Below, piece by piece: positions 3,187-32,965 of a stretch of 33,713 nucleotides of DNA. The notes under the pieces are model-generated. The model ran no database searches and was not told the DNA's origin. It was given only the letters and a program-made list of their open reading frames with translations. The translations under genes and the position numbers were made by a program. Origin of the DNA: an uncultured Clostridia bacterium (lineage in GTDB: Bacteria; Bacillota_I; Bacilli_A; RF39; UBA660); contig CAMVAF010000015.1 of the NCBI GenBank assembly GCA_947165365.1, positions 1 to 33,713 of the forward strand. Reading direction: 5' to 3'. Positions within the stretch are counted from its first letter, which is position 1. The number at the start of each line of letters is the position of its first letter.

Positions 3187-4027
3187 TTGCATTTCCTTCC
3201 AATAATTCTGGGTTTCTTAAGATATAATCAAATAAGTTAACAGCTTTTGAAAAGTATACACCATCTGCTATTCTCTCGTCTAAGTTAATTCCAAATTCAA
3301 CTACATCACGAACCTCTATTTTATCATTTTCCATAACAACAGGTTCTTTATGAATATCCCCAATTGTAATTAAAATTCCATTAGTTCCAAAGTTAGTTAA
3401 ATGATGGTATATGGCACCACATTTTATACTACCTAAATTAGATAGAATAACGGTACTATTATAGATTAAATCATTATTTAAACTTTTTGGTAATAAATCA
3501 TGTCGATCCATAAATTTAGCTCCTGGTGCAATAATATATTTTAGCATCCAATTAGGGAATTTATCTAACATATCTAAAGAATCATCAGAACTATTTTGTT
3601 CTTTTTTATTTCTAAAAGTATCTACTTTATCTTTAATCTTTTTACCAAGAGTATTAATATTGTCATTAGGATCAACCTTAATTAAACTCATAACTTCCTT
3701 AGCATTATCAGAAAAATCTACTTTAGCTGTAAAAGTTATAATAACATCATTCCTTTGATAACAATTATGATTAATAATATATCTATTTAGTTTTGGTCTA
3801 TTATAAATAACCTTACTAATAGCGATTGAAAAAGCATGAAAATAAGTAATACCTGTATTTTCTTTTTTCTTTTTATTCATATATTTTACTAAATCAGTTA
3901 CATCAACTTTTCTATTAATATATACATCTGCATCCTGTCTATCTGTTAAATAAGTTAAAAGCCTCATCATTGCGGGCATCTTTATTCTTTTAGCATCCCT
4001 TCGATCTCTAAATTTTTTCTTTCCCAT
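3149..4027 (-). CDS. Stand-alone E2-like (2-oxoacid dehydrogenase acyltransferase fold) protein lacking the catalytic His
   Basis: The 292-residue protein has the chloramphenicol acetyltransferase/E2 catalytic fold without lipoyl or E1-binding domains. Recognisable parts are the N-terminal FRDRRD stretch, helix HAFSIAISKVIYNRPKLNRYI, the strand ILSNLGSIKCGAIYHH, and the C-terminal LDERIADG, which sits where E2 enzymes have DHRxxDG. The catalytic His is therefore Glu. I recall Clostridia homologues with DERICDG, annotated as E2 subunits, so the change appears to be a subfamily trait and not decay. The start is the fifth codon of the longest frame (4027), five bases after GGAGG. It is the first gene of a unit with the acyl-CoA ligase, so a CoA-linked acyl transfer or binding role is plausible but unproven. 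Confidence 0.8.
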   Translation of the reverse strand: MGKKKFRDRRDAKRIKMPAMMRLLTYLTDRQDADVYINRKVDVTDLVKYMNKKKKENTGITYFHAFSIAISKVIYNRPKLNRYIINHNCYQRNDVIITFTAKVDFSDNAKEVMSLIKVDPNDNINTLGKKIKDKVDTFRNKKEQNSSDDSLDMLDKFPNWMLKYIIAPGAKFMDRHDLLPKSLNNDLIYNSTVILSNLGSIKCGAIYHHLTNFGTNGILITIGDIHKEPVVMENDKIEVRDVVEFGINLDERIADGVYFSKAVNLFDYILRNPELLEGNANDEILEKKDFEY

Positions 4028-4094
4028 CATATCCTCCATAACATATATTTAATTATAAAGAAAAAAATATTTTTTGTAAAGAGAATATACATAA

Positions 4095-4123
4095 TTGACA
4101 AGTAACCTAATTTATGATAAATC
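4095..4123 (+). promoter_or_regulatory. Promoter of the EamA-type transporter
   Basis: A perfect TTGACA (4095-4100) stands 17 bases before TAAATC (4118-4123), preceded by TGA as an extended -10. The -10 itself is poor. Confidence 0.55.
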
Positions 4124-4141
4124 TATTATGATAGGTGATAT

Positions 4142-5008
4142 ATGTTACTAAGTATTATTTTATCATTATTAGTAGTTTTATTATGGTCATATGGAGATAT
4201 AAATTATTCAAAACTATCTTCTAAATTAGATAAGATAAATATTTATTTCTATCAATATTTTATTAAATCATTAATTTATTTATTATTTACCATTATTTTT
4301 AATATTTCCTTATTTACAAGTTTTAATATCACTCATTTTTTTATTTTTTCATCAGTAATATTTTGTGATTTAGCAGCTTCTATAGCTGTTTATTATGCTG
4401 TAAGTAAAGGTAAATTATCCATAGTAAGTCCTATTATGGCAGCTTACCCTATAGTTACTATTTATTTAGGAATTACTCTTCTTCATGAAAAACCATCATT
4501 TATAAGTATTTTATTGTCTATGATTATCACAGTATATATTATTATTTTATCAAAAACATCATCTAAAGATACTAATCATAAATCTCATAAAAGAAGTATT
4601 ATTTATGCCATAATATATATGTTTTTAATAGCATTTTCTACTTACTTTGAAAAAGATATCTATAATAATAACCTATCTATTTATGAATTATATTATTATA
4701 AAGGTTTAGTATACTTATTAACCAGTTTAGGTTTTTTAGGAATATTATTCTTTAAAAAAGATAAGCTCCATAAATTAAATAAAGATATTATTAAAGGAAG
4801 TATTCTAACACCAATAGGTAATGTATTCTATTCCCTTGCTATTAGATTAGGAGATATCATCTATATTTCACCAATAACCTCGATGTATTCTATATTAACC
4901 AATTATTTAAGTGTTAATATTTTAAAAGAAAAACTATCAATAACTGAAAGAATATCGATATCCCTAATTCTTTTATCCACAATATTGTTGATAATTATTT
5001 CTTTATAA
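4142..5008 (+). CDS. EamA/DMT-superfamily transporter
   Basis: The 288-residue protein has about ten hydrophobic helices in two homologous halves, the architecture of drug/metabolite transporters of the EamA type. The second half starts near residue 151 after a short Lys- and His-rich linker. Typical features are the ISPITSMYSILTNYLSV stretch before the last two helices and the matching IVSPIMAAYPIVTIYLG in the first half, each followed by a glutamate-containing turn (HEKPS, KEKLS). These proteins usually move small organic metabolites; the substrate is unknown. AGGTG precedes the ATG. It is probably a single-gene unit. Confidence 0.88.
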   Translation: MLLSIILSLLVVLLWSYGDINYSKLSSKLDKINIYFYQYFIKSLIYLLFTIIFNISLFTSFNITHFFIFSSVIFCDLAASIAVYYAVSKGKLSIVSPIMAAYPIVTIYLGITLLHEKPSFISILLSMIITVYIIILSKTSSKDTNHKSHKRSIIYAIIYMFLIAFSTYFEKDIYNNNLSIYELYYYKGLVYLLTSLGFLGILFFKKDKLHKLNKDIIKGSILTPIGNVFYSLAIRLGDIIYISPITSMYSILTNYLSVNILKEKLSITERISISLILLSTILLIIISL

Positions 5009-5026
5009 AGGTTGTATATTTTTCTC

Positions 5027-5055
5027 TAGTCAAAATAATAAATCTATGGTATTAT
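5027..5055 (+). promoter_or_regulatory. Promoter of the HD-domain gene
   Basis: TAGTCA (5027-5032), 17-base spacer, TATTAT (5050-5055) preceded by TGG. Confidence 0.55.
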
Positions 5056-5100
5056 ATATAATGTTTAAAAACATATAATTAATACAGAAGGTGAAAAAAA

Positions 5101-5838
5101 TTGATAAAAGATAAATTAATAAATAAACTATTTGATAAATATAAATTAAATGATAATGAAAAATTAGAATTATATAACATAATGAAAGATATCTATTTCC
5201 ATCCAGAATTTCAAAAAAGATTAACTAAAGAATTTCCACATCATGGAAGTTTTACATTAGGTGATCATATTATTAAAGATGCTATTGTAACATATAAATT
5301 AAGTAAAAAATATGAAAAAAGAAAAAGAAAAAAACCATATAATACTAAATTAGCAGTAACTATTGCGATGTTTCATGATTTGTATACTGAATGTTGGCAA
5401 AATAGTGAAGAAAAACCAAAACATTTTTATAATAAACATGGATTTCGTCATCCTGTAGAAGCGGTAATTAATGCCTATAATTGGTATCCTGAAATATTTA
5501 AAAATGAACATGACTCTAAAATCATTATTGATGGTATTCTTCATCATATGTATCCACTTCCAGTAACTTCATATATTGATAGTAAAAATAATCAAAATGA
5601 ATTAAAAAACTACATTTTAACAAGTAATTTAGATGATAAAATAAAACAAATAATGATTGATAGTACTAAAAGACATAAAATATATAAGGTTTCCATATCA
5701 AGGAGTAAATATAAAGAAGGAAGAATTATGAGTAAAGCAGATAAGAAAGTTGCAAGTCGTGAATTAAATAATTATCATTCTGCCAAAGCCCTAATTACTG
5801 GTACCAATAAAAGATTACTAAAAAAAATTGAAAAATAA
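5101..5838 (+). CDS. HD-domain protein, TTG start
   Basis: The 245-residue protein carries the metal-binding pattern of the HD phosphohydrolase superfamily: His56, the FHD pair (His92, Asp93), HGFRH (113-117) and the HH pair at 148-149. HD proteins hydrolyse phosphate esters of nucleotides or related compounds, but the substrate is not evident. The C-terminal third is basic (SKADKKVASRE and following), which could contact nucleic acid or ribosomes; that is a guess. The start is TTG, chosen because AGAAGGTG lies eight bases upstream and no ATG occurs before residue 28. It has its own promoter and stands upstream of the CarD-family gene. Confidence 0.85.
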   Translation: MIKDKLINKLFDKYKLNDNEKLELYNIMKDIYFHPEFQKRLTKEFPHHGSFTLGDHIIKDAIVTYKLSKKYEKRKRKKPYNTKLAVTIAMFHDLYTECWQNSEEKPKHFYNKHGFRHPVEAVINAYNWYPEIFKNEHDSKIIIDGILHHMYPLPVTSYIDSKNNQNELKNYILTSNLDDKIKQIMIDSTKRHKIYKVSISRSKYKEGRIMSKADKKVASRELNNYHSAKALITGTNKRLLKKIEK

Positions 5839-5841
5839 TTC

Positions 5842-5870
5842 TTACATCAAAAATTTTAAAATGATATAAT
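5842..5870 (+). promoter_or_regulatory. Promoter of the CarD-family gene
   Basis: TTACAT (5842-5847), 17-base spacer ending in TGA, and a consensus TATAAT (5865-5870). Confidence 0.7.
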
Positions 5871-5893
5871 ATTATTGAAATTGAGGCGATAAT

Positions 5894-6364
5894 ATGTATC
5901 AAAAAAATGAAATGATTGTATATAAAAAGGATGTTTGTAAAATTACTGATATTAAAGAAATAAATAATCTTAAGTATTATATCTTAAATCCTATAAATGA
6001 TGATAGTTTAAAAATTCAAGTACCAATTGATAATAAAGATATTAGAAATTTAATAAGTAAAGATGAAGTAAATAAGATAATTAAGAAAATGCCAAGTATT
6101 GAGATAATTAAAAATAATAATAAATTATTAGAAAATGAATACAGAAATTTACTAAAAGATGGTAGTTTTGAAAGTCTAATTAAAATTATTAAGACTGCCT
6201 ATTTAAGGAATAAAGAGAGATTAGATAACAACAAAAAGAAACAAGAAAAAGATGATTATTATCTAGAACTTGCGGAAAAATATTTATATACAGAATTTTC
6301 TGTTGTTTTACAGAAAAATATTAATGAAATGAAAGATTATATTTTAAATACTTTAGGTGAGTAA
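5894..6364 (+). CDS. CarD/CdnL/TRCF RNA-polymerase-interacting domain regulator
   Basis: At 156 residues this has the size and layout of CarD-family regulators, which bind the RNA polymerase beta subunit and modulate promoter opening. The N-terminal Tudor-like domain is seen as MIVYKKDVCKITDI followed by the YYILNP and KIQVPID strands and the IRNLIS turn (residues 7-60). The helical C-terminal domain contains EYRNLLKDGSFESLIKIIK and a closing YLELAEKYLYTEFSVVL helix. Its own consensus promoter and single-gene arrangement fit a global regulator. Family membership is clear; which genes it affects cannot be told here. Confidence 0.85.
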   Translation: MYQKNEMIVYKKDVCKITDIKEINNLKYYILNPINDDSLKIQVPIDNKDIRNLISKDEVNKIIKKMPSIEIIKNNNKLLENEYRNLLKDGSFESLIKIIKTAYLRNKERLDNNKKKQEKDDYYLELAEKYLYTEFSVVLQKNINEMKDYILNTLGE

Positions 6365-6389
6365 AAGTATTATAATATAATCTTTTTTA

Positions 6390-6419
6390 TTGAAAACAAA
6401 GTAATTCTTATGATATACT
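6390..6419 (+). promoter_or_regulatory. Promoter of the methyltransferase/pseudouridine synthase pair
   Basis: TTGAAA (6390-6395), 18-base spacer ending in TGA, TATACT (6414-6419). The ATG follows about 17 bases after the -10. Confidence 0.7.
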
Positions 6420-6436
6420 TTTCCCGTAGGTGATTT

Positions 6437-7297
6437 ATGAAAGTAGTAAACGATTACATTGATTTTGAAATAATTGATACAAGTGATGGAATGAAATATG
6501 AAAGATGGGGAAATATTTATTTATTAAGACCAGATCCATTAGTTATTTGGAATAATGGTGATTTATCATTAAAATACCATAATATTAATAGTATTTATCA
6601 TAGAAGTAACAAAGGTGGTGGATATTGGGAAGATTTAAAAAATGTTCCTGATAACTGGAGTATCTCATATCATGATATGAAATTTAATTTAAAAAAAATG
6701 GGTTTTAAACATACTGGTTTATTCCCAGAACAAGCTATTAATTGGAATTATATAAGAGAAAAAATTAAAGAATCAAAAAGAGATAATATTAAAGTATTAA
6801 ATTTATTTGCATATACAGGAGGAGCTACTATAGCCGCAATGATGGAAGGTGCATCTGTAACACATGTTGATTCTTCACGTGGTATGGTTTCTCATGCTAA
6901 AGAAAATGTTAAATTAAATCATTTAGATGAGACAAAAGTAAGATTTATAATCGATGATGTTATTAAATTTGTTAAAAGAGAAATAAGAAGAAATAATAAA
7001 TATGATGCGATAATTATGGATCCACCTGCTTTTGGAAGAGGGGCTAATGGTGAAGTTTGGGATATTGAAAAAGATTTATATGAATTAATAACATTATGTA
7101 ATGAACTTTTGTGTGATAAACCATTATTTATGTTAGTGAATTCTTATTCTGGACTTTCTCCAACTGTTCTTTATAATGTCCTAAAATTAACAAACAAAAG
7201 AAAAGGTAACATCTCCATTGATGAAATAGGACTACCTATAAAAAATAATGATTTAATATTACCATGTGGTATTTATGGAAGAATTGATTATGAATAA
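6437..7297 (+). CDS. Class I SAM-dependent methyltransferase, RlmI/RlmK-like
   Basis: The 286-residue protein has the Rossmann methyltransferase core of the COG1092 type: SAM-binding motif LNLFAYTGGA at 121-130, the acidic VDSS strand end near 144-147, DDV near 173, and the catalytic MDPPAFGRG at 194-202. These enzymes usually methylate cytosine in 23S rRNA, but this protein lacks the N-terminal PUA domain of RlmI, so the target is uncertain. The first 100 residues form the strand-rich module seen in the shorter members of the family. It overlaps the downstream pseudouridine synthase by eight bases, pairing two likely RNA-modifying enzymes in one transcript. Confidence 0.87.
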   Translation: MKVVNDYIDFEIIDTSDGMKYERWGNIYLLRPDPLVIWNNGDLSLKYHNINSIYHRSNKGGGYWEDLKNVPDNWSISYHDMKFNLKKMGFKHTGLFPEQAINWNYIREKIKESKRDNIKVLNLFAYTGGATIAAMMEGASVTHVDSSRGMVSHAKENVKLNHLDETKVRFIIDDVIKFVKREIRRNNKYDAIIMDPPAFGRGANGEVWDIEKDLYELITLCNELLCDKPLFMLVNSYSGLSPTVLYNVLKLTNKRKGNISIDEIGLPIKNNDLILPCGIYGRIDYE

Positions 7298-14715: not shown

Positions 14716-15996
14716 ATGGAAGAAAAGAAAAATAAATTTTTAATAAAAAGTTATAAGCAAATGTTTATGGTAATAGGAATATTTACTTTAGTATTATTGG
14801 TTGGTGGAACAGCATATGCCTTTTTTAATTACACAAGAACAGGTTCTGCCAATACATTAAGAACAGGAAGAATATATTTTAGTACAGAGCAAACAAATAA
14901 TAATACGATTACATTAAATAATATTTTTCCAATGACTAAAGAACAAGCACTTGCTGATACAAGTACAAATGGTACATTAGTAGTAACCTTTACTGGAGAT
15001 ACAACATATACTGAAGGAATAGAATATTTATTAACAATAGATTCAGTAACAAGAACAGCCAATGTACCAATAAGTTTAATAATGGATGTAAATGTAACCG
15101 AAAATAGTGTAGCAGTAGCAGAAAATACCAATTATTATACTGCAAGAGAAGCAAAGAATACATCAATGTATAAAGCAGAAGGAGAAGATATCGTAATTAA
15201 TAGTACCAATCATAAAATTATAACAGATCTAGAAACAGGAAAATATCTTCTTGCGGGATACATAAAGAGTGGACAATATGGAGTAAGAGGTACAGTAACG
15301 ATAAAAGCCTTTATCGATGCCGATAATATTTTAATTACTGATACTCCAAATGATCAAAGTGGAAATCCTCCAACAGGATCAACCGATGGAACAATCACCA
15401 CAGGAAAAACAGTAATATCAACAGCAGATTGGAATGCTTTACAAACAAATGGAATAAGCTTTAAAGTAAGAGGAGAAGCAAATCCAGGAATCTGGGTACC
15501 AGCACCAGCTCAAGGAACAATAGAATCATGTCCAGGATGTAAATTTATTTATTCAACAACTGCAATGTATACAACATGGAATGATCAAATTCAAACACCA
15601 ACCCAAATAACAAGCGGGTTATATGATAGTTATGATGAATTAATAGCAACAACGGGGAAAAATTATTTCTTGGGAGTAAAATTAAATAATAATAATGAAG
15701 TAACGAATGCCTATGCATGTGGAATAAAAGATGGAATTCCATTCTGTATTGAGGGAACAAGTGATGGAAGTAAATACACAGCAAATCAAACATTAATAAA
15801 TGGAGCAAATTTATGGAATAACACATGTACTGTAGAAAGTAATTATACATCATGTGGACCATGGGATAACGCTTCTGTTTCTGCTTATGCTGATTCTGAT
15901 GACTATGTTGATGCTGGCGTTGGTACTTACGGCATCTGCAGTGTGACTCCGTATGGCGACTTTAGGTGCGATGATTCCTCTGGTGAGGGAGCGTAG
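14716..15996 (+). CDS. Membrane-anchored surface protein, TasA/pilin-like, with diversified C-terminus
   Basis: The 426-residue protein starts with a basic segment and one membrane helix (16-37) followed by AFFNYTRTGSANTL, the pattern of TasA/camelysin-type exported fibre proteins (GG-A-FF-TGS-NT). A beta-rich exterior part follows. The C-terminal 165 residues hold four pairs of Cys, with two similar hairpins, ACGIKDGIPFC and GICSVTPYGDFRC. From codon 384 on, base composition changes sharply (see the separate entry at 15862). GGAG stands ahead of the ATG. It has its own promoter with palindrome and a G-run leader. The role is likely adhesion or fibre formation at the surface; this is inference. 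I could not assign a family with certainty. Confidence 0.75.
   Translation: MEEKKNKFLIKSYKQMFMVIGIFTLVLLVGGTAYAFFNYTRTGSANTLRTGRIYFSTEQTNNNTITLNNIFPMTKEQALADTSTNGTLVVTFTGDTTYTEGIEYLLTIDSVTRTANVPISLIMDVNVTENSVAVAENTNYYTAREAKNTSMYKAEGEDIVINSTNHKIITDLETGKYLLAGYIKSGQYGVRGTVTIKAFIDADNILITDTPNDQSGNPPTGSTDGTITTGKTVISTADWNALQTNGISFKVRGEANPGIWVPAPAQGTIESCPGCKFIYSTTAMYTTWNDQIQTPTQITSGLYDSYDELIATTGKNYFLGVKLNNNNEVTNAYACGIKDGIPFCIEGTSDGSKYTANQTLINGANLWNNTCTVESNYTSCGPWDNASVSAYADSDDYVDAGVGTYGICSVTPYGDFRCDDSSGEGA
15862..15996 (+). other. Compositionally foreign, adenine-depleted 3' module of the 14716 gene
   Basis: From GAT at 15865 through AGT at 15942, 26 codons in a row end in T or C, while the preceding gene prefers A-ending codons (GCA, ACA, GGA). 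In 15871-15993, 18 of 123 bases are A (about 15 percent) and 62 are G or C (about 50 percent). NNY codons with few adenines are what adenine-specific mutagenesis of AAY codons leaves, as in the variable region of a diversity-generating retroelement. Horizontal exchange of a 3' cassette is the alternative. Confidence 0.55.
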
Positions 15997-16250
15997 TAGT
16001 AGTCCCGCCAGATTTTCCAAATACTTAATTTATTGAGGGATTAATAAAAAAGATTGGAAACAAGAGTATTCTTTGCATAATATAGTGTGTAAATTCTGAA
16101 AATAGAATTACAAACACACTATATTTTTTGTTGTAGTAAAGTAGTAAAAGAAAGTTAGATGATACATATTTAGTAGTATATGTAATAAAAAAAACATAAC
16201 TATAGATATTTATAATTTTTTTTCTTAAAAAGGTATGTTAGAAGAAATAC
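15997..16250. other. Intergenic stretch after the TasA/pilin-like gene
   Basis: It begins with two further in-frame TAG codons directly after the stop (15997-16002), then a G+C-rich tail to about 16011, a loose inverted repeat TTTCCAA/TTGGAAA (16014-16020, 16054-16060), the terminator at 16079-16129 and a small hairpin TACATAT/ATATGTA (16163-16184). I see no gene, no retroelement template repeat and no RNA of known type. Confidence 0.6.
16079..16129 (+). terminator. Nested-stem terminator of the TasA/pilin-like gene
   Basis: AATATAGTGTGT (16079-16090) pairs perfectly with ACACACTATATT (16114-16125); inside it AATTCT and AGAATT form a second stem. Four T follow. Confidence 0.85.
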
Positions 16251-16310: not shown

Positions 16311-18605
16311 ATGATTTTGGATGAATATGATATCTTAAGAAAGAAAAATAAGAAGAAAGGTTTTGCAGCCTTTGATTTACTAATTTATATTGCAATTGTA
16401 TTACTTGCAATTATCATTTTTGCTTTCATAATTGGAAAGGTTAATAAAAATAAAACAACTGAAACTGATAATGGAAGTAAAACAACCAGTGTAATAACAG
16501 AAAATAATGGTTCTAGTGAGGTAGTTAATAATAATGAATCAACTGATGTAGTAACAATTGATCCAAAAGCAGAAAGAACATATTATGAAAATATTAAAAA
16601 TATTAAAGATGCAGCAGTAAACTACTTTACTAATGAAAGATTACCTAAAACAAAAGGTGAAACTACTAAATTAACATTAAAGAAAATGCAAGATAAAAAA
16701 CTTGTATTAAATGTTATTGATAGTAAAGATAACTTTTGTGATGGTGAAAAGAGTTATGTTGAAGTAACAAAAGATACTAATGAATATGTAATGAAAATAT
16801 ATTTATCTTGTACAGATAAAGAAGATTATATTATTGTTCATTTAGGATGTTATGATTACTGTAAAGATAACATTTGCGAAAAGAAAGAAGATATTAAAGA
16901 ATTTGAATATGAATATAAAAAAGCAACAGAATGTGTTATGACAGATTGGTCTTCTTGGAGTGAATGGAAAACAAAAAGAGAAGCTACAAATAGTAATAAA
17001 AAAGAAGAAATAAAAACAGAAACCAAAAAACAAGAATATACTGATACGATAAACGCTACAAAATCACCTGTAACTTATAACTGTGATGGATACCCAGGAT
17101 ATAAATTAAGTGGTAATTTATGTGTTAAAGAAACAACTACTAAAGATGTTATTGATGCAACACCAAGTACTTATTCATATAGTTGTAGTGATTATCCAGG
17201 ATATTTTGTTGAAGGGGATAAATGTGTTAAAATAACTACTAAAAAAGAAACAAAAAATGCAACTAAAATAGAAGGAAAATATTATTGTCCAGAAGGATAT
17301 ATATTAAATGGTACAAAATGTGAAAGAACAATTACTAAGACATCAACAAAAGATGCCACAAAAAATCCAATAACTTACTATTGTCCAGATGGATATAAGT
17401 TAAATGGTACAAAATGTGAAAGAACAGTCACAAAGACATCAACAAAAGATGCCACAAAAAATCCAATAACTTACTATTGTCCAGAAGGATATAAGTTAAA
17501 CGGAACAAAATGTGAAAGAACAGTTACTAAAACATCAACAAAAGATGCCACAAAAAATCCAATAACTTATTATTGTCCAGAAGGATATAAGTTAAATGGC
17601 ACAAAATGTGAAAAAACAGTTACAAAGACATCAACAAAAGATGCAACACCAAAATATAGTACTAAAAAAGAATATTATACATGTTATAAACAAGAATGTA
17701 CTACTAAAACTGTATTTAGTTGTGCAACTGGAACATGTAAGATGACTCCACAAACAAGTTGTGAGAATAAAGCAAAAACATGTTCAAAAGATGTATCTTA
17801 TATTAGCAGTTACACATGTCCAACAGGATATACCCTAAATGGAACAAAATGTACAAAGAAATATAAAGATACTGAAAAAATAGATGCAAGTAAAAATCCA
17901 CAAACATATTCATGTCCAGAAGGATATACTCTAAATGGAATAAAATGTACAAAGAAATATGATGAATTAGAAAAAATAGATGCAAATAAAAATCCACAAA
18001 CATATTCATGTCCAGAAGGATATACTCTAGATGGAACAAAATGTACAAAGAAATATGATGAATTAGAAAAAATAGATGCAAATAAAAATCCACAAACATA
18101 TTCATGTCCAGAAGGATATACCCTAAATGGAACAAAATGTACAAAGAAATATGATGAAATAGAAACTATTAATGCTAATAAATATAATGATACCTATAAA
18201 TGTGAAACTGGATATATTTTAGATAATAAAACTTGTATTAAAGAAATAACAGAAAAAGATACTAAAAATGCTAAAAAAGTATCAGGTGGTTATATTTGTA
18301 AAGCAGGTTATATTCAAAAAAATAAAAAATGTGAAAAAACAATTACAAAGGTAGATACTAAACTAGCTTATCAAAATAAAGTAACTTATTCTTGTCCAAG
18401 TGGATATAGTCTAAATGGTACAAAATGTACTAAGAAAATAAATAAAGACATTAAAGTAACTTATTATCGCTATGCAACAAGAAGCTGTAATGGTGGTAGT
18501 GTTGATACTAAATGGAGTTATTTAGATAATGAAGAATTATTATCTAACGGATATAAATTAACTGGCAAAAAAAGAGAAGTTAAGGTAACAGTAAAAGAAA
18601 AATAA
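16311..18605 (+). CDS. Pilin-like surface protein with array of 32-residue Cys repeats
   Basis: The 764-residue protein begins with KKKGFAAFDLLIYIAIVLLA, resembling a type IV prepilin N-terminus (cleavage after Gly17, Phe at +1) except that position +5 is Asp, not Glu. A globular part follows (90-200, with YFTNERLP and several Cys), then a WSSWSEW stretch near 213 recalling thrombospondin type 1 repeats. From about residue 250 to 715 there is a run of repeats of 32-34 residues with the core CPEGYxLNGTKC. The C-terminus is basic and has no LPXTG motif or second membrane helix. It is probably anchored by its N-terminal helix and extended outward by the repeats, as a stalk or adhesin. It is transcribed with the 18620 gene, 14 bases downstream. 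Confidence 0.75.
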   Translation: MILDEYDILRKKNKKKGFAAFDLLIYIAIVLLAIIIFAFIIGKVNKNKTTETDNGSKTTSVITENNGSSEVVNNNESTDVVTIDPKAERTYYENIKNIKDAAVNYFTNERLPKTKGETTKLTLKKMQDKKLVLNVIDSKDNFCDGEKSYVEVTKDTNEYVMKIYLSCTDKEDYIIVHLGCYDYCKDNICEKKEDIKEFEYEYKKATECVMTDWSSWSEWKTKREATNSNKKEEIKTETKKQEYTDTINATKSPVTYNCDGYPGYKLSGNLCVKETTTKDVIDATPSTYSYSCSDYPGYFVEGDKCVKITTKKETKNATKIEGKYYCPEGYILNGTKCERTITKTSTKDATKNPITYYCPDGYKLNGTKCERTVTKTSTKDATKNPITYYCPEGYKLNGTKCERTVTKTSTKDATKNPITYYCPEGYKLNGTKCEKTVTKTSTKDATPKYSTKKEYYTCYKQECTTKTVFSCATGTCKMTPQTSCENKAKTCSKDVSYISSYTCPTGYTLNGTKCTKKYKDTEKIDASKNPQTYSCPEGYTLNGIKCTKKYDELEKIDANKNPQTYSCPEGYTLDGTKCTKKYDELEKIDANKNPQTYSCPEGYTLNGTKCTKKYDEIETINANKYNDTYKCETGYILDNKTCIKEITEKDTKNAKKVSGGYICKAGYIQKNKKCEKTITKVDTKLAYQNKVTYSCPSGYSLNGTKCTKKINKDIKVTYYRYATRSCNGGSVDTKWSYLDNEELLSNGYKLTGKKREVKVTVKEK
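17280..17663 (+). repeat. Tandem repeat block A, four 96-bp units
   Basis: Units start at 17280, 17376, 17472 and 17568, each coding YYCPxGYxLNGTKCE plus a KTSTKDAT linker. Units 2-4 are nearly identical in DNA except the tail of the last. Confidence 0.9.
17811..18386 (+). repeat. Tandem repeat block B, six 96-bp units
   Basis: Units start at 17811, 17907, 18003, 18099, 18195 and 18291, each coding YxC..GYxL..xxC plus a linker. The units at 17907, 18003 and 18099 are nearly identical in DNA; the last two are diverged. A further core begins at 18387. Confidence 0.9.
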
Positions 18606-22159: not shown

Positions 22160-22192
22160 TAAATTATAGAAAAATAGAAAGAAGTGATGACT

Positions 22193-24856
22193 ATGGAAGA
22201 AAAGAAAAAAAATAAATTTTTAATAAAAAGTTATAAACAAATGTTTATGGTAATAAGTATATTTACCTTAATTTTATTAGTAGGTGGCACAACTTTAGCT
22301 TTCTTTAACTATACAAGAACAGGTGGTGCAAATACTTTAAAAGTAGGAAGAATAAGTTTTGTAACAAGACAAACCAAAACCATTAGTTTAACCAATCTAT
22401 TTCCCATAGATCCAACAAATAATGAAGAAATGTCTGACGCTACCAAAGTAGGTACATTAGAAATTGAAATAGAAGGAGATACTGATTATAATCAAGGTGT
22501 CGAATATCTAGTATCAAGTGAAAATACTAATATTACTACGTCAAATGGTAGAGTAGTTCCTATTAGTTTAGATATCGAAGTAACTAATTTAGGAACAGAA
22601 AATGCTAATTATTTTACTGCCAGAGAAAGTAAAAATGCAACAATTTATAAAAGAATAATAGGTGATGCTTTAACTGATGATGAAAGAATACTAGTAGGTT
22701 TTATTAAACCAAATACAACAAGTGGAACCATTGAAGGAGTAAATGGTAAAATAACTATTAAAGCATATCTAGATAAAAATAAAATATTAATAAGTGATAC
22801 CTATAATGGTACAGAATCAGATGATATGGGTACACCTAATTCTTTAGCGGAAGGAAAAACGGTATTAACAACCGAAGAATGGAATAATATCTCAAGTACA
22901 GGAGTATCATTTCAAATAAAAGTAGAAGCCAATGAAGGAATATGGGTAAAGGAAAACCAAATGAATATTAGAAGACTTGATTTTACAAGTAATAATCCAT
23001 CAATGACAATTGCTCAATTAAATTCTTCAGGAGATAAGACCATCAAATTAAATACAACCGTAGTTGTTAATGAAGGTAGTGCTGATGAACAAACATTGTA
23101 TGCCCAAATGAAATTACAAGGAACATCAAGTTTATCATATGATAAGAAAAATTATACTATTACTTTTTATAATGACGAAGAATTAACTGATAAAGCAAAA
23201 ATTGATGTAGGAAAAGATTGGGGAGATCAAAGTAAATATTGTCTTAAGGCAAATTGGATTGATTATACACAATCTAGAAATATTGTCTCAGCAAGACTAG
23301 CATCTCAAATGCAAGAAAAATATAACTTATTTCAAACAACACCTAATAATGGACTAATTGATGGATTTTTTATTGAAGTATATATTGATGGAAATTATCA
23401 AGGTTTATTTACAATGAATATACCAAAAGGTGATTGGATGTTTAATATGGATAGTAGTAATCCAAATCATATTTTAGTAGCAGGGGAAAATCCTAATAGA
23501 GGAAGTTCAACATCTTTTAGAGCGTTAACAAATGTATCACAAGATGGAATTGATTGGTCTGTTGAAGTAGGTGAAGTAAACGAAGCAACATATACAAAAT
23601 TAAATCGTTTAATTAGTTTTGTAATGAATTCATCAGATACTGAATTTAAAAATAATTTTAATCAATATTTAAATTTAGATGCAACTCTTAATTATTTTGC
23701 TTTTATTGAAATAGCTAGTGCAACAGATAGTCTTGGTAAAAACATGTTATTAGCAACATACGATGGAAATGTATGGTATCCATCATTATATGATTTAGAT
23801 ACAACATGGGGAATTGTTTTTGATGGAAGTGGAACTCTTTATCCCCAAAAATCTTATAATGAATATAGTGGAGGAGATAATTTACTTTTAGAAAGAATTA
23901 TTAAAAACTTTCCTGAAGAATTGGAAAATCGTTATAAAGAATTAAGAAGTACAGTTTTATCTAATCAAAATATTATTAATACATTTAATGAATTTTATGG
24001 TACAGCAACAAATGAAATGTGGCAAAGAGAACACACAAAGTGGCCAAATATTCCTAACCCAACAAGTGTTGTTAGTGGTACAACAGGAATTAACCAAATT
24101 ACTACTGATTTGAGTTATCATGCAAACTTTGCCGATTCTTTTATGGATAGTATTTATATCCCTCCAAGAACATATAATGAAAGTAATTTAATATTTAGTT
24201 TAAATACTCCTTATCAAGGAGCCCCTTATAAATATATGGATACTGGTATTAAATTATATACGGATACAAGTGATGCCAACTCTCACTATACAATATTAGC
24301 AAAATATACTCCAAATAGCGATTCAACATCTGAAGAAGAAACATTATTATCAGAAACATCTACATGGCATGGCGATGGAATACGTGATGGAATAATTGTT
24401 CATGATAGTAAAATACATAGTATGACTTCCTTTCATGTTGGTACAGATTTAACAAGAAATGGATATGAAGGACTTGCAAGATATACAGTTGGCGATAGTA
24501 GTTATTTTGCTATCACCATCGATAGCGGAGTATACCGAATTTTTGGAATGGTTGATGATAAAAATGGCGACTATGGTGGTTTGTGTACTCCTGAAAGAAG
24601 CGATGTTTATGATGCCTGTTATGATACTCCAGTAAATGGAAGACTTGACATGCGAAAGAAAAATAATAGTTTAAATGATACAAGTTACGTTAAAGGAAAT
24701 CTTACCATTGGTTCAACATTCTTTTTAAATGGTGATACTCAAGATATTCCATATGCCGAAAATTCATTTACTGGTGTAATAAGTGAGTTATATGTATATA
24801 ATCGTATTCTTACTAATTCTGAAATTAGAACAAAAATATTATCAATGCAACAATAG
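22193..24856 (+). CDS. Surface-anchored CotH-kinase and LamG-like protein
   Basis: The 887-residue protein has three parts. Residues 1-256 are a membrane-anchored TasA/camelysin-like module almost identical at its start to that of the 14716 gene (YKQMFMV, then LAFFNYTRTGGANTL). Residues about 257-600 are a CotH-type kinase domain: GTSSLSYDKKNYTI, CLKANWID with the Arg-containing RNIVSARLA, GLFTMNIPKGD, and YDLDTTWG near 533-540, where CotH kinases have their metal-binding Asp pair. Residues about 664-887 resemble a laminin-G/concanavalin-like domain ending in ISELYVYNRILTNSEI. CotH kinases phosphorylate proteins or attach to spore coat and surface proteins. Start ATG 22193 is set by similarity to the 14716 gene and by GAAAGAAG upstream. 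Followed by a terminator. Confidence 0.87.
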   Translation: MEEKKKNKFLIKSYKQMFMVISIFTLILLVGGTTLAFFNYTRTGGANTLKVGRISFVTRQTKTISLTNLFPIDPTNNEEMSDATKVGTLEIEIEGDTDYNQGVEYLVSSENTNITTSNGRVVPISLDIEVTNLGTENANYFTARESKNATIYKRIIGDALTDDERILVGFIKPNTTSGTIEGVNGKITIKAYLDKNKILISDTYNGTESDDMGTPNSLAEGKTVLTTEEWNNISSTGVSFQIKVEANEGIWVKENQMNIRRLDFTSNNPSMTIAQLNSSGDKTIKLNTTVVVNEGSADEQTLYAQMKLQGTSSLSYDKKNYTITFYNDEELTDKAKIDVGKDWGDQSKYCLKANWIDYTQSRNIVSARLASQMQEKYNLFQTTPNNGLIDGFFIEVYIDGNYQGLFTMNIPKGDWMFNMDSSNPNHILVAGENPNRGSSTSFRALTNVSQDGIDWSVEVGEVNEATYTKLNRLISFVMNSSDTEFKNNFNQYLNLDATLNYFAFIEIASATDSLGKNMLLATYDGNVWYPSLYDLDTTWGIVFDGSGTLYPQKSYNEYSGGDNLLLERIIKNFPEELENRYKELRSTVLSNQNIINTFNEFYGTATNEMWQREHTKWPNIPNPTSVVSGTTGINQITTDLSYHANFADSFMDSIYIPPRTYNESNLIFSLNTPYQGAPYKYMDTGIKLYTDTSDANSHYTILAKYTPNSDSTSEEETLLSETSTWHGDGIRDGIIVHDSKIHSMTSFHVGTDLTRNGYEGLARYTVGDSSYFAITIDSGVYRIFGMVDDKNGDYGGLCTPERSDVYDACYDTPVNGRLDMRKKNNSLNDTSYVKGNLTIGSTFFLNGDTQDIPYAENSFTGVISELYVYNRILTNSEIRTKILSMQQ

Positions 24857-32710: not shown

Positions 32711-32716
32711 AAAAAT

Positions 32717-32965
32717 ATAAATTGTTGATGAAGAGAAGTAATATTAATAAACTTAAAAGCGAGTTAATAAATGGTGAAAGATTAACAAAGAAATATTAAT
32801 ATGAATAACACTTTGGAGAGCTTTTTGAAATTAAGTAGAAAAGACGGAGGTTTACCGTTATCTAAACTATGGTTTATTGACCAAAAAGAGATTACTAAAA
32901 TAGTAATAATTAGGGTGGTACCGCGAGTTAAGAGTCCTCGTCCCTTTGGATGAGAGACTCTTTTT
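32717..32965 (+). promoter_or_regulatory. T-box riboswitch, specifier AAC (Asn)
   Basis: The T-box sequence AGGGTGGTACCGCG is at 32912-32925, followed by the terminator AAGAGTC/GACTCTT with T run (32930-32965). Stem I starts with the AGAGAAGTA region (about 32730) and carries the specifier AAC at 32784-32786 followed by purines, after GGTGAAAG. Uncharged tRNA-Asn would pair with the specifier and the T-box bulge and allow readthrough into asnS. The spacing to the asnS ATG is short, as usual. Confidence 0.95.

Follow-up and report, generated by a model that had tools for sequence, protein, structure and literature searches.

The gene at position 14716 of the window (the whole 33,713-nucleotide stretch of DNA analyzed, presumably of a rumen bacterium, i.e. 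contig C15 of assembly G000, which comprises 1.41 Mb in 51 contigs and is 82% complete) has a 3' end of odd composition, which raises the question whether this end is the variable region (VR) of a diversity-generating retroelement (DGR), as a first-pass annotation had proposed. The A-rich, A-ending codon style of the gene holds to about position 15860 and then changes. Adenine accounts for 18/123 bases (14.6%) in 15871-15993 vs 43.1% in the rest of the gene, and G+C for 50.4% vs 31.3%; the depletion described at first (18 of 123 bases; G+C about 50%) was thus reproduced, as was the run of 26 successive codons ending in T or C (NNY), which covers 15865-15942 and is the longest in the gene. The other open reading frames of the window contain NNY runs of up to 16 codons, and the expected chance of a 26-codon run is about 5e-8 per start position at an NNY frequency of 0.52. 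Among the other coding 123-nt stretches of the window, the lowest adenine content is 24.4% and the highest G+C content 41.5%. The odd composition continues beyond the stop codon, into the segment GTAGTAGTAGTCCCGCCAG.

The features of the locus are summarized in Table 1; the gene limits and the two cysteines in the tail hairpin are as described in the first-pass annotation. The encoded protein was without a match among protein-family models. Its N-terminal half recurs in further surface proteins from this genus, one of them the target of a lectin-type DGR in genome G003, and the scaffold part of its C-terminal domain is as A-rich as the remainder of the gene. A paralogue with the same N-terminal half is encoded at 22184-24856 of the window, in which a CotH kinase domain replaces the Cys domain. 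Neither a reverse transcriptase (RT) nor a template repeat lies within the window, as had been claimed.

Table 1. Coordinates of features at the window locus and in the complete DGR of genome G012 (locus L135)
Sequence	Feature	Position	Strand	Description
Window	Target gene	14716..15996	+	426 aa; N-terminal hydrophobic segment, exported-protein N-terminal half, C-terminal Cys-rich domain
Window	Scaffold part of C-terminal domain	15520..15870	+	conserved; CPGCKF, GKNYFLG and ACGIKDGIPFC motifs
Window	Putative variable region	15871..15993	+	adenine-depleted domain tail; NNY codons where template has AAY
Window	Variable-region core	15886..15912	+	at AAC/AAT codons of the G004:C98 partial and the G137 complete templates
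Window	Core codons	15886, 15892, 15898, 15904, 15910		TAT, GAT, GAT, TAT, GAT
Window	Two Cys of variable region	15937..15939, 15967..15969	+	
Window	Conserved 3' segment	15993..16011	+	GTAGTAGTAGTCCCGCCAG; stop codon at 15994; common to G004:C50 and G004:C98
Window	Candidate hairpin	16029..16048	+	8-bp stem including a G-T pair, 4-nt loop
G012	Target gene	3882..5255		
G012	Template	about 5475..5599		
G012	Avd	5775..6152		
G012	RT	6136..7278		

The A-poor 3' end is, very probably, a DGR variable region of a type specialized on a small cysteine-stapled module. Two genomes of the same bacterial family, G137 and G012, encode complete DGRs in which the variable region is the tail of a domain homologous to that of the window, each with a template repeat, an Avd gene and a GxxxSQ/YMDD reverse transcriptase. 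For G137 (locus L209), target, template, Avd and RT all lie within about 3 kb; the target tail ends SSVSGAHAYGDGGVRVSPRSGDNCSVGTYGGGAYCYY, and the template, which starts at 1215, reads SSSSNANCNGSSVNNANANDNSNVNVNPSSGNNCNVNNDGNANC. Between template and variable region, adenines are changed at 26/48 positions and other bases at 15/112 (p=2e-7), and the adenine excess is gone when the roles of template and variable region are swapped (2/24 vs 40/139). For G012 the corresponding counts are 15/34 and 1/88 (p=4e-9). The Fisher tests assume independent sites, which codons and shared ancestry break, and all p-values are to be read as guides. The main alignments tolerate mismatches at template adenines; a neutral alignment for G137 gave the same result.

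Tails homologous to the G012 template were found on further contigs of this genome (C29, p=3e-4; C26, p=0.008 in a gappy alignment; C58 and C17, p about 0.06-0.07), a distribution consistent with one template that would serve several targets in trans. The N-terminus of the G012 target is a member of the SipW-dependent biofilm matrix proteins (TIGR04090). Genomes G335 (loci L212, L213 and L214, i.e. several tails) and G148 (L211) contain further A-depleted Cys-module tails, most of them with the downstream element described below; no RT is present in the stretches fetched around these four loci, and the tails are candidates for additional trans targets.

At the level of codons, the template motif ANANDNSNVN of G137 aligns with ANANTNGNVN of contig C98 in genome G004 and with AYADSDDYVD of the window, and 10 of 12 aligned AAY codons of the G137 template are NNY in the window (in two gap-free blocks picked by eye). 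Over the whole length and with neutral scoring, the window shows no adenine excess against the G137 template (25/48 vs 63/123); this comparison is uninformative because the genera are too far apart, and therefore only the codon-level alignment and a partial template from the same genus are informative for the window.

The module is present in three of five genomes of the window's genus; the relatives were deposited as metagenome genomes of uncultured Erysipelotrichaceae (G003 is RUG14705 and G004 is RUG12925; the RUG series is presumably from rumen). Contig C98 of G004 contains a variable copy at 69-235 and a second copy at 498-700, outside any plausible gene. The first 58 bases of the latter (498-555) form a partial template with AAC, AAT, AAT, AAC and AAT at five codons that differ in the variable copies, and all five sites are NNY codons in the window (the core codons of Table 1). 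Against this partial template, changed adenines and changed other bases number 6/11 and 1/47 for G004:C98a, 7/11 and 1/47 for G003:C10, 8/11 and 6/41 for G004:C50, and 6/11 and 5/40 for the window (p=0.007). Judged from these alignments, the pattern in G004:C98a and G003:C10 is a DGR signature, and G004:C50 and the window would carry a weaker, older-looking one. The adenine-richness of the second copy is confined to its 5' half and its 3' half is VR-like, so that it is read as either a mosaic or a mis-assembly and not as a complete template. When the window was tested by codon position against the two relatives nearest to it, only one comparison of six reached significance. Three paralogues of the genus (L014, L011 and L005, on G003:C41, G002:C125 and G002:C70, respectively) have moderately A-depleted, NNY-rich tails and no known template.

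A conserved post-VR element follows variable regions of this type in several relatives. The sequence AATCTTGAATC lies 3' of the variable regions in G004:C98a, G004:C50, G012, G148 and G335, and precedes a hairpin whose stem letters vary between genera with pairing kept (GCATTTTT/AAAAATGC, TATTTTGC/GCAAAATA, and CATC/GATG flanked by CCCC/GGGG); after the hairpin follows a last motif, GTGCCGAAC..GTGTAGGCAC or GCGCCGAAC..GTGTAGGCGC. Downstream in G137 lie a hairpin (AAAATTCC/GGAATTTT) and, again, this last motif; apart from these elements, the motif was not found in 1.1 Mb of fetched loci, which had been chosen for the Cys-module family. A template leader block, ATATAGGGRTATTCTRAT, is common to G004:C98 and G012 (p about 0.006); a pattern scan for this leader across the bacterial family, with two mismatches, gave mostly chance hits. 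The post-VR element and the templates were without a match in Rfam. The window matches the 3' segment of its relatives as far as CCCGCCAG (16011) and then diverges, and no recognizable conserved post-VR element is present 3' of its module. Its candidate hairpin (Table 1) stands at the place of the relatives' post-VR hairpin and is unexceptional for the A+T-rich DNA here. The putative variable region lies, as in the BPP-1 system, at the 3' terminus of the coding sequence; efficient homing in BPP-1 needs a hairpin downstream of the variable region (PMC3240598). The conserved segment GTAGTAGTAGTCCCGCCAG at the end of the window gene is a candidate for the end of the homing-initiation sequence.

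The first-pass annotation had suggested looking in the rest of the genome for a template, i.e. a copy of the module rich in adenine, next to an RT gene. No template copy matching the module is present in the 82%-complete assembly (51 contigs), which contains a single copy of the module, no RVT_1 match and no intact RT; a partial template beside a variable copy was found instead in the same genus, as described above. The sole RT-like stretch of the assembly (C46:2801-3139) corresponds to about residues 19-131 of the RTs of the genus, has an internal stop and lacks the catalytic half. It lies behind a surface-protein gene that is truncated by the contig start and whose tail, HFWTMSPSSFYSSNAYAYEFYVSPTGVMNYHYVTYGHGLRAV, resembles a lectin-type variable region; nuclease genes, which we take to be DUF1016-like, follow the decayed RT fragment at this locus (L200:2-3142). 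This locus is a broken DGR. The genome thus holds DGR traces, of another type and broken, and since the RT fragment goes with a variable region of the lectin type, it says little on the Cys-type system.

The RTs of the Cys-type DGRs have the GxxxSQ motif, a mark of DGR RTs, as well as the YMDD motif; they match RVT_1 and phrog_1423. Among solved structures, their best match is the 8ub7 reverse transcriptase series, presumably the BPP-1 DGR complex. The RTs of G012 and G137 are 61% identical and were grouped apart from the lectin-type RTs with support 1.0. The Avd of G012 matches bAvd (E 5e-9) and NF033474 (E 2e-8), both below the curated Pfam/NCBIfam cut-offs, as well as phrog_3206, 'Avd protein of DGR' (E 1e-11), and its homologue in G137 is 68% identical. 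The genomes G003 and G004 of the window's genus each encode one complete lectin-type DGR (G003:C3 and G004:C29) with its own template, and the only RTs found in these two genomes are those of the lectin-type DGRs. The lectin-type template differences comprise 27 adenine and four other positions in L082, and 21 adenine and four other positions in L079. The C-termini of the lectin-type RTs (L079:1159-2628 and L082:7790-9262) match MutS domain I (E 1.5e-4 and 1.1e-6, respectively), which suggests, by profile matching, that a MutS-like piece is fused to these RTs; no such stretch is present in the Cys-type RT of G012.

By prediction, the module is a small beta unit with two Cys, carried by an exported protein. 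Its domain family is widespread in this bacterial family, and the homologous tail is A-depleted in many members too. An AlphaFold model of the domain alone was obtained with moderate confidence (pLDDT 70, pTM 0.69) and has C-terminal strands at model residues 120-125, 130-134, 138-142 and 147-151; the template Asn positions therefore fall in strands and their turns. The full-length model (pLDDT 33) was unusable. The domain-only model gave no clear match in the PDB, with lectin folds absent among the matches listed, and there was neither a sequence link of the domain to solved structures nor a profile link between the module and the tails of lectin-type DGR targets in the genus (hhalign probability 0.09%). 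The module may still have a divergent lectin fold, although nothing found here supports one; annotated DGR variable regions are reported to be systematically C-type lectin folds (Roux et al. 2021, PMC8144416). A phage origin of the module was considered and is unsupported: viral contigs and phage records are without relatives of the domain, the 3' segment or the exact post-VR motif.

For the writing of the window's tail we propose a route modelled on known DGRs. The DGR reverse transcriptase and Avd, as encoded in the relatives, would together copy a template-repeat RNA with runs of AAC/AAT and miscopy its adenines, such that AAY codons become NNY codons and other bases are kept; the cDNA would then replace the 3' end of the surface-protein gene, presumably guided by the conserved sequence around the stop codon and the downstream hairpin element. 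The window's tail most likely owes its sequence to a Cys-module DGR that acted in trans and would be located elsewhere in the window's own genome or in that of an ancestor. The proposal that the gene is a DGR target is hence supported as to the origin of the tail: in its favor are the composition and NNY run, the homology between the module and the variable regions in the complete DGRs of G137 and G012, the adenine-specific changes there, the partial A-rich template in the genus, the AAY to NNY replacements, and the RT and Avd genes. Counting against it are the lack of a template or intact RT in the 82%-complete assembly, the finding of RTs in G003 and G004 only with lectin-type templates, the confinement of adenine-richness to the 5' half of the in-genus template, the missing post-VR element at the window, and the single significant result among the codon-position tests.

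Two explanations outside of a DGR appear improbable. The least probable is an ordinary amino-acid or codon bias, i.e. a tail rich in Gly, Ala, Asp, Tyr and Ser that happens to need NNY codons; all these residues are indeed encoded by NNY or T/C-rich codons, and a similar residue pattern occurs in many homologues without a detected DGR. However, homologues of similar residues without A-depletion exist (e.g. L007 and L195), so that the fold does not force the composition; the NNY run length and the adenine depletion exceed all else in the window, and the bias leaves the adenine-specific pattern in the relatives unexplained. Scarcely more credible, and already disfavored, is a cassette exchange or horizontal transfer in which a foreign 3' block, richer in G+C, replaced the old tail by recombination. 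The sharp composition switch and the extension of the conserved block past the stop codon would fit such an event, but the tail is the natural end of the domain family and is shared by homologues without the composition change, the variable copies change at template adenines and keep third and non-adenine bases, and the same module has complete template/RT systems.

The standing of the module today is a separate matter within the DGR explanation. The window module may now be frozen, i.e. a relic written by an ancestral DGR whose element has died in this lineage, with the tail now an ordinary gene end; as a sub-case of the DGR explanation, this reading does not compete with it. That the genome shows no trace of an RT beyond an N-terminal fragment, decayed and interrupted by a stop, that the 82%-complete assembly yielded no template, and that the post-VR element is absent 3' of the module all speak for a relic, whereas the A-depletion of the module is still strong, and DGR loci are often at contig breaks (the copies at G004:C98, G137:C1 and G335:C98 lie near contig ends) in an assembly of limited completeness. 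We give a frozen and an active module about even chances, because no template or intact RT was found in this assembly and no recognizable post-VR element behind the module.

The Cys-module systems resemble the DGR of Bordetella phage BPP-1 (Mtd target, Avd, bRT) in the template/variable pair with adenine-specific changes, the order of Avd and RT, the location of the variable region at the gene 3' end and the hairpin 3' of it (PMC3240598). They differ from it in being cellular and not phage-borne, with an exported surface-type protein as target and a variable module without detectable relation to the C-type lectin; furthermore, RT and Cys template do not occur together in the window's genus, and the loops of the Cys-type hairpins are not GRNA and their stems are often A+T-rich. 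The lectin-type DGRs of G003 and G004 share the genus of the window and the Avd-like and RT genes, and the G003 target has the N-terminal half of the window protein; their variable region, in contrast, is a lectin-type tail (WxxSPSxF...GxRxxxS(L/I)), and their RT, of 490 aa and with the MutS_I-like C-terminus, is about 40% identical to the Cys-type RTs. Like the cellular DGR targets of a global survey, which have C-terminal variable regions on modular, often membrane-bound proteins and are enriched in Firmicutes, the window protein has its putative variable region at the C-terminus; the annotated variable regions of that survey, however, were found to be systematically C-type lectin folds, and remote trans targets were beyond its reach (Roux et al. 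2021, PMC8144416). The TIGR04090 family (TasA/camelysin-like), to which the G012 target belongs by its N-terminus and the window protein does not by any model match, is without a recorded DGR in the literature searched.

A further reading, which we consider rather probable, is that of a Cys-module DGR lineage of uncultured gut Bacilli. This lineage would have its own RT clade and a distinctive two-hairpin post-VR element, and would be specialized on a disulfide-stapled beta module that is not a lectin and forms the tip of exported proteins of matrix type. It would serve several targets in trans within each genome and, in one genus, coexist with a lectin-type DGR on proteins that share the N-terminal half. 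A large survey concluded that DGR variable regions are near-universally lectin folds, a fold seemingly uniquely tolerant of massive variation (PMC8144416). If structural work confirms that complete DGRs diversify a small Cys-stapled module, a different, simpler scaffold would be shown to tolerate such variation. The findings also suggest a single template that acts in trans to vary the tips of several surface proteins in uncultured gut bacteria, an arrangement missed by surveys that are limited to short contigs.

Other features predicted in the window comprise a protein in which a Cys-rich (cEGF-like) repeat recurs about nine times in near-identical form (16311-18605), a T-box leader toward the window end (32716-32948; Rfam RF00230, 119.8 bits), and a tRNA-Gln gene (4-78).
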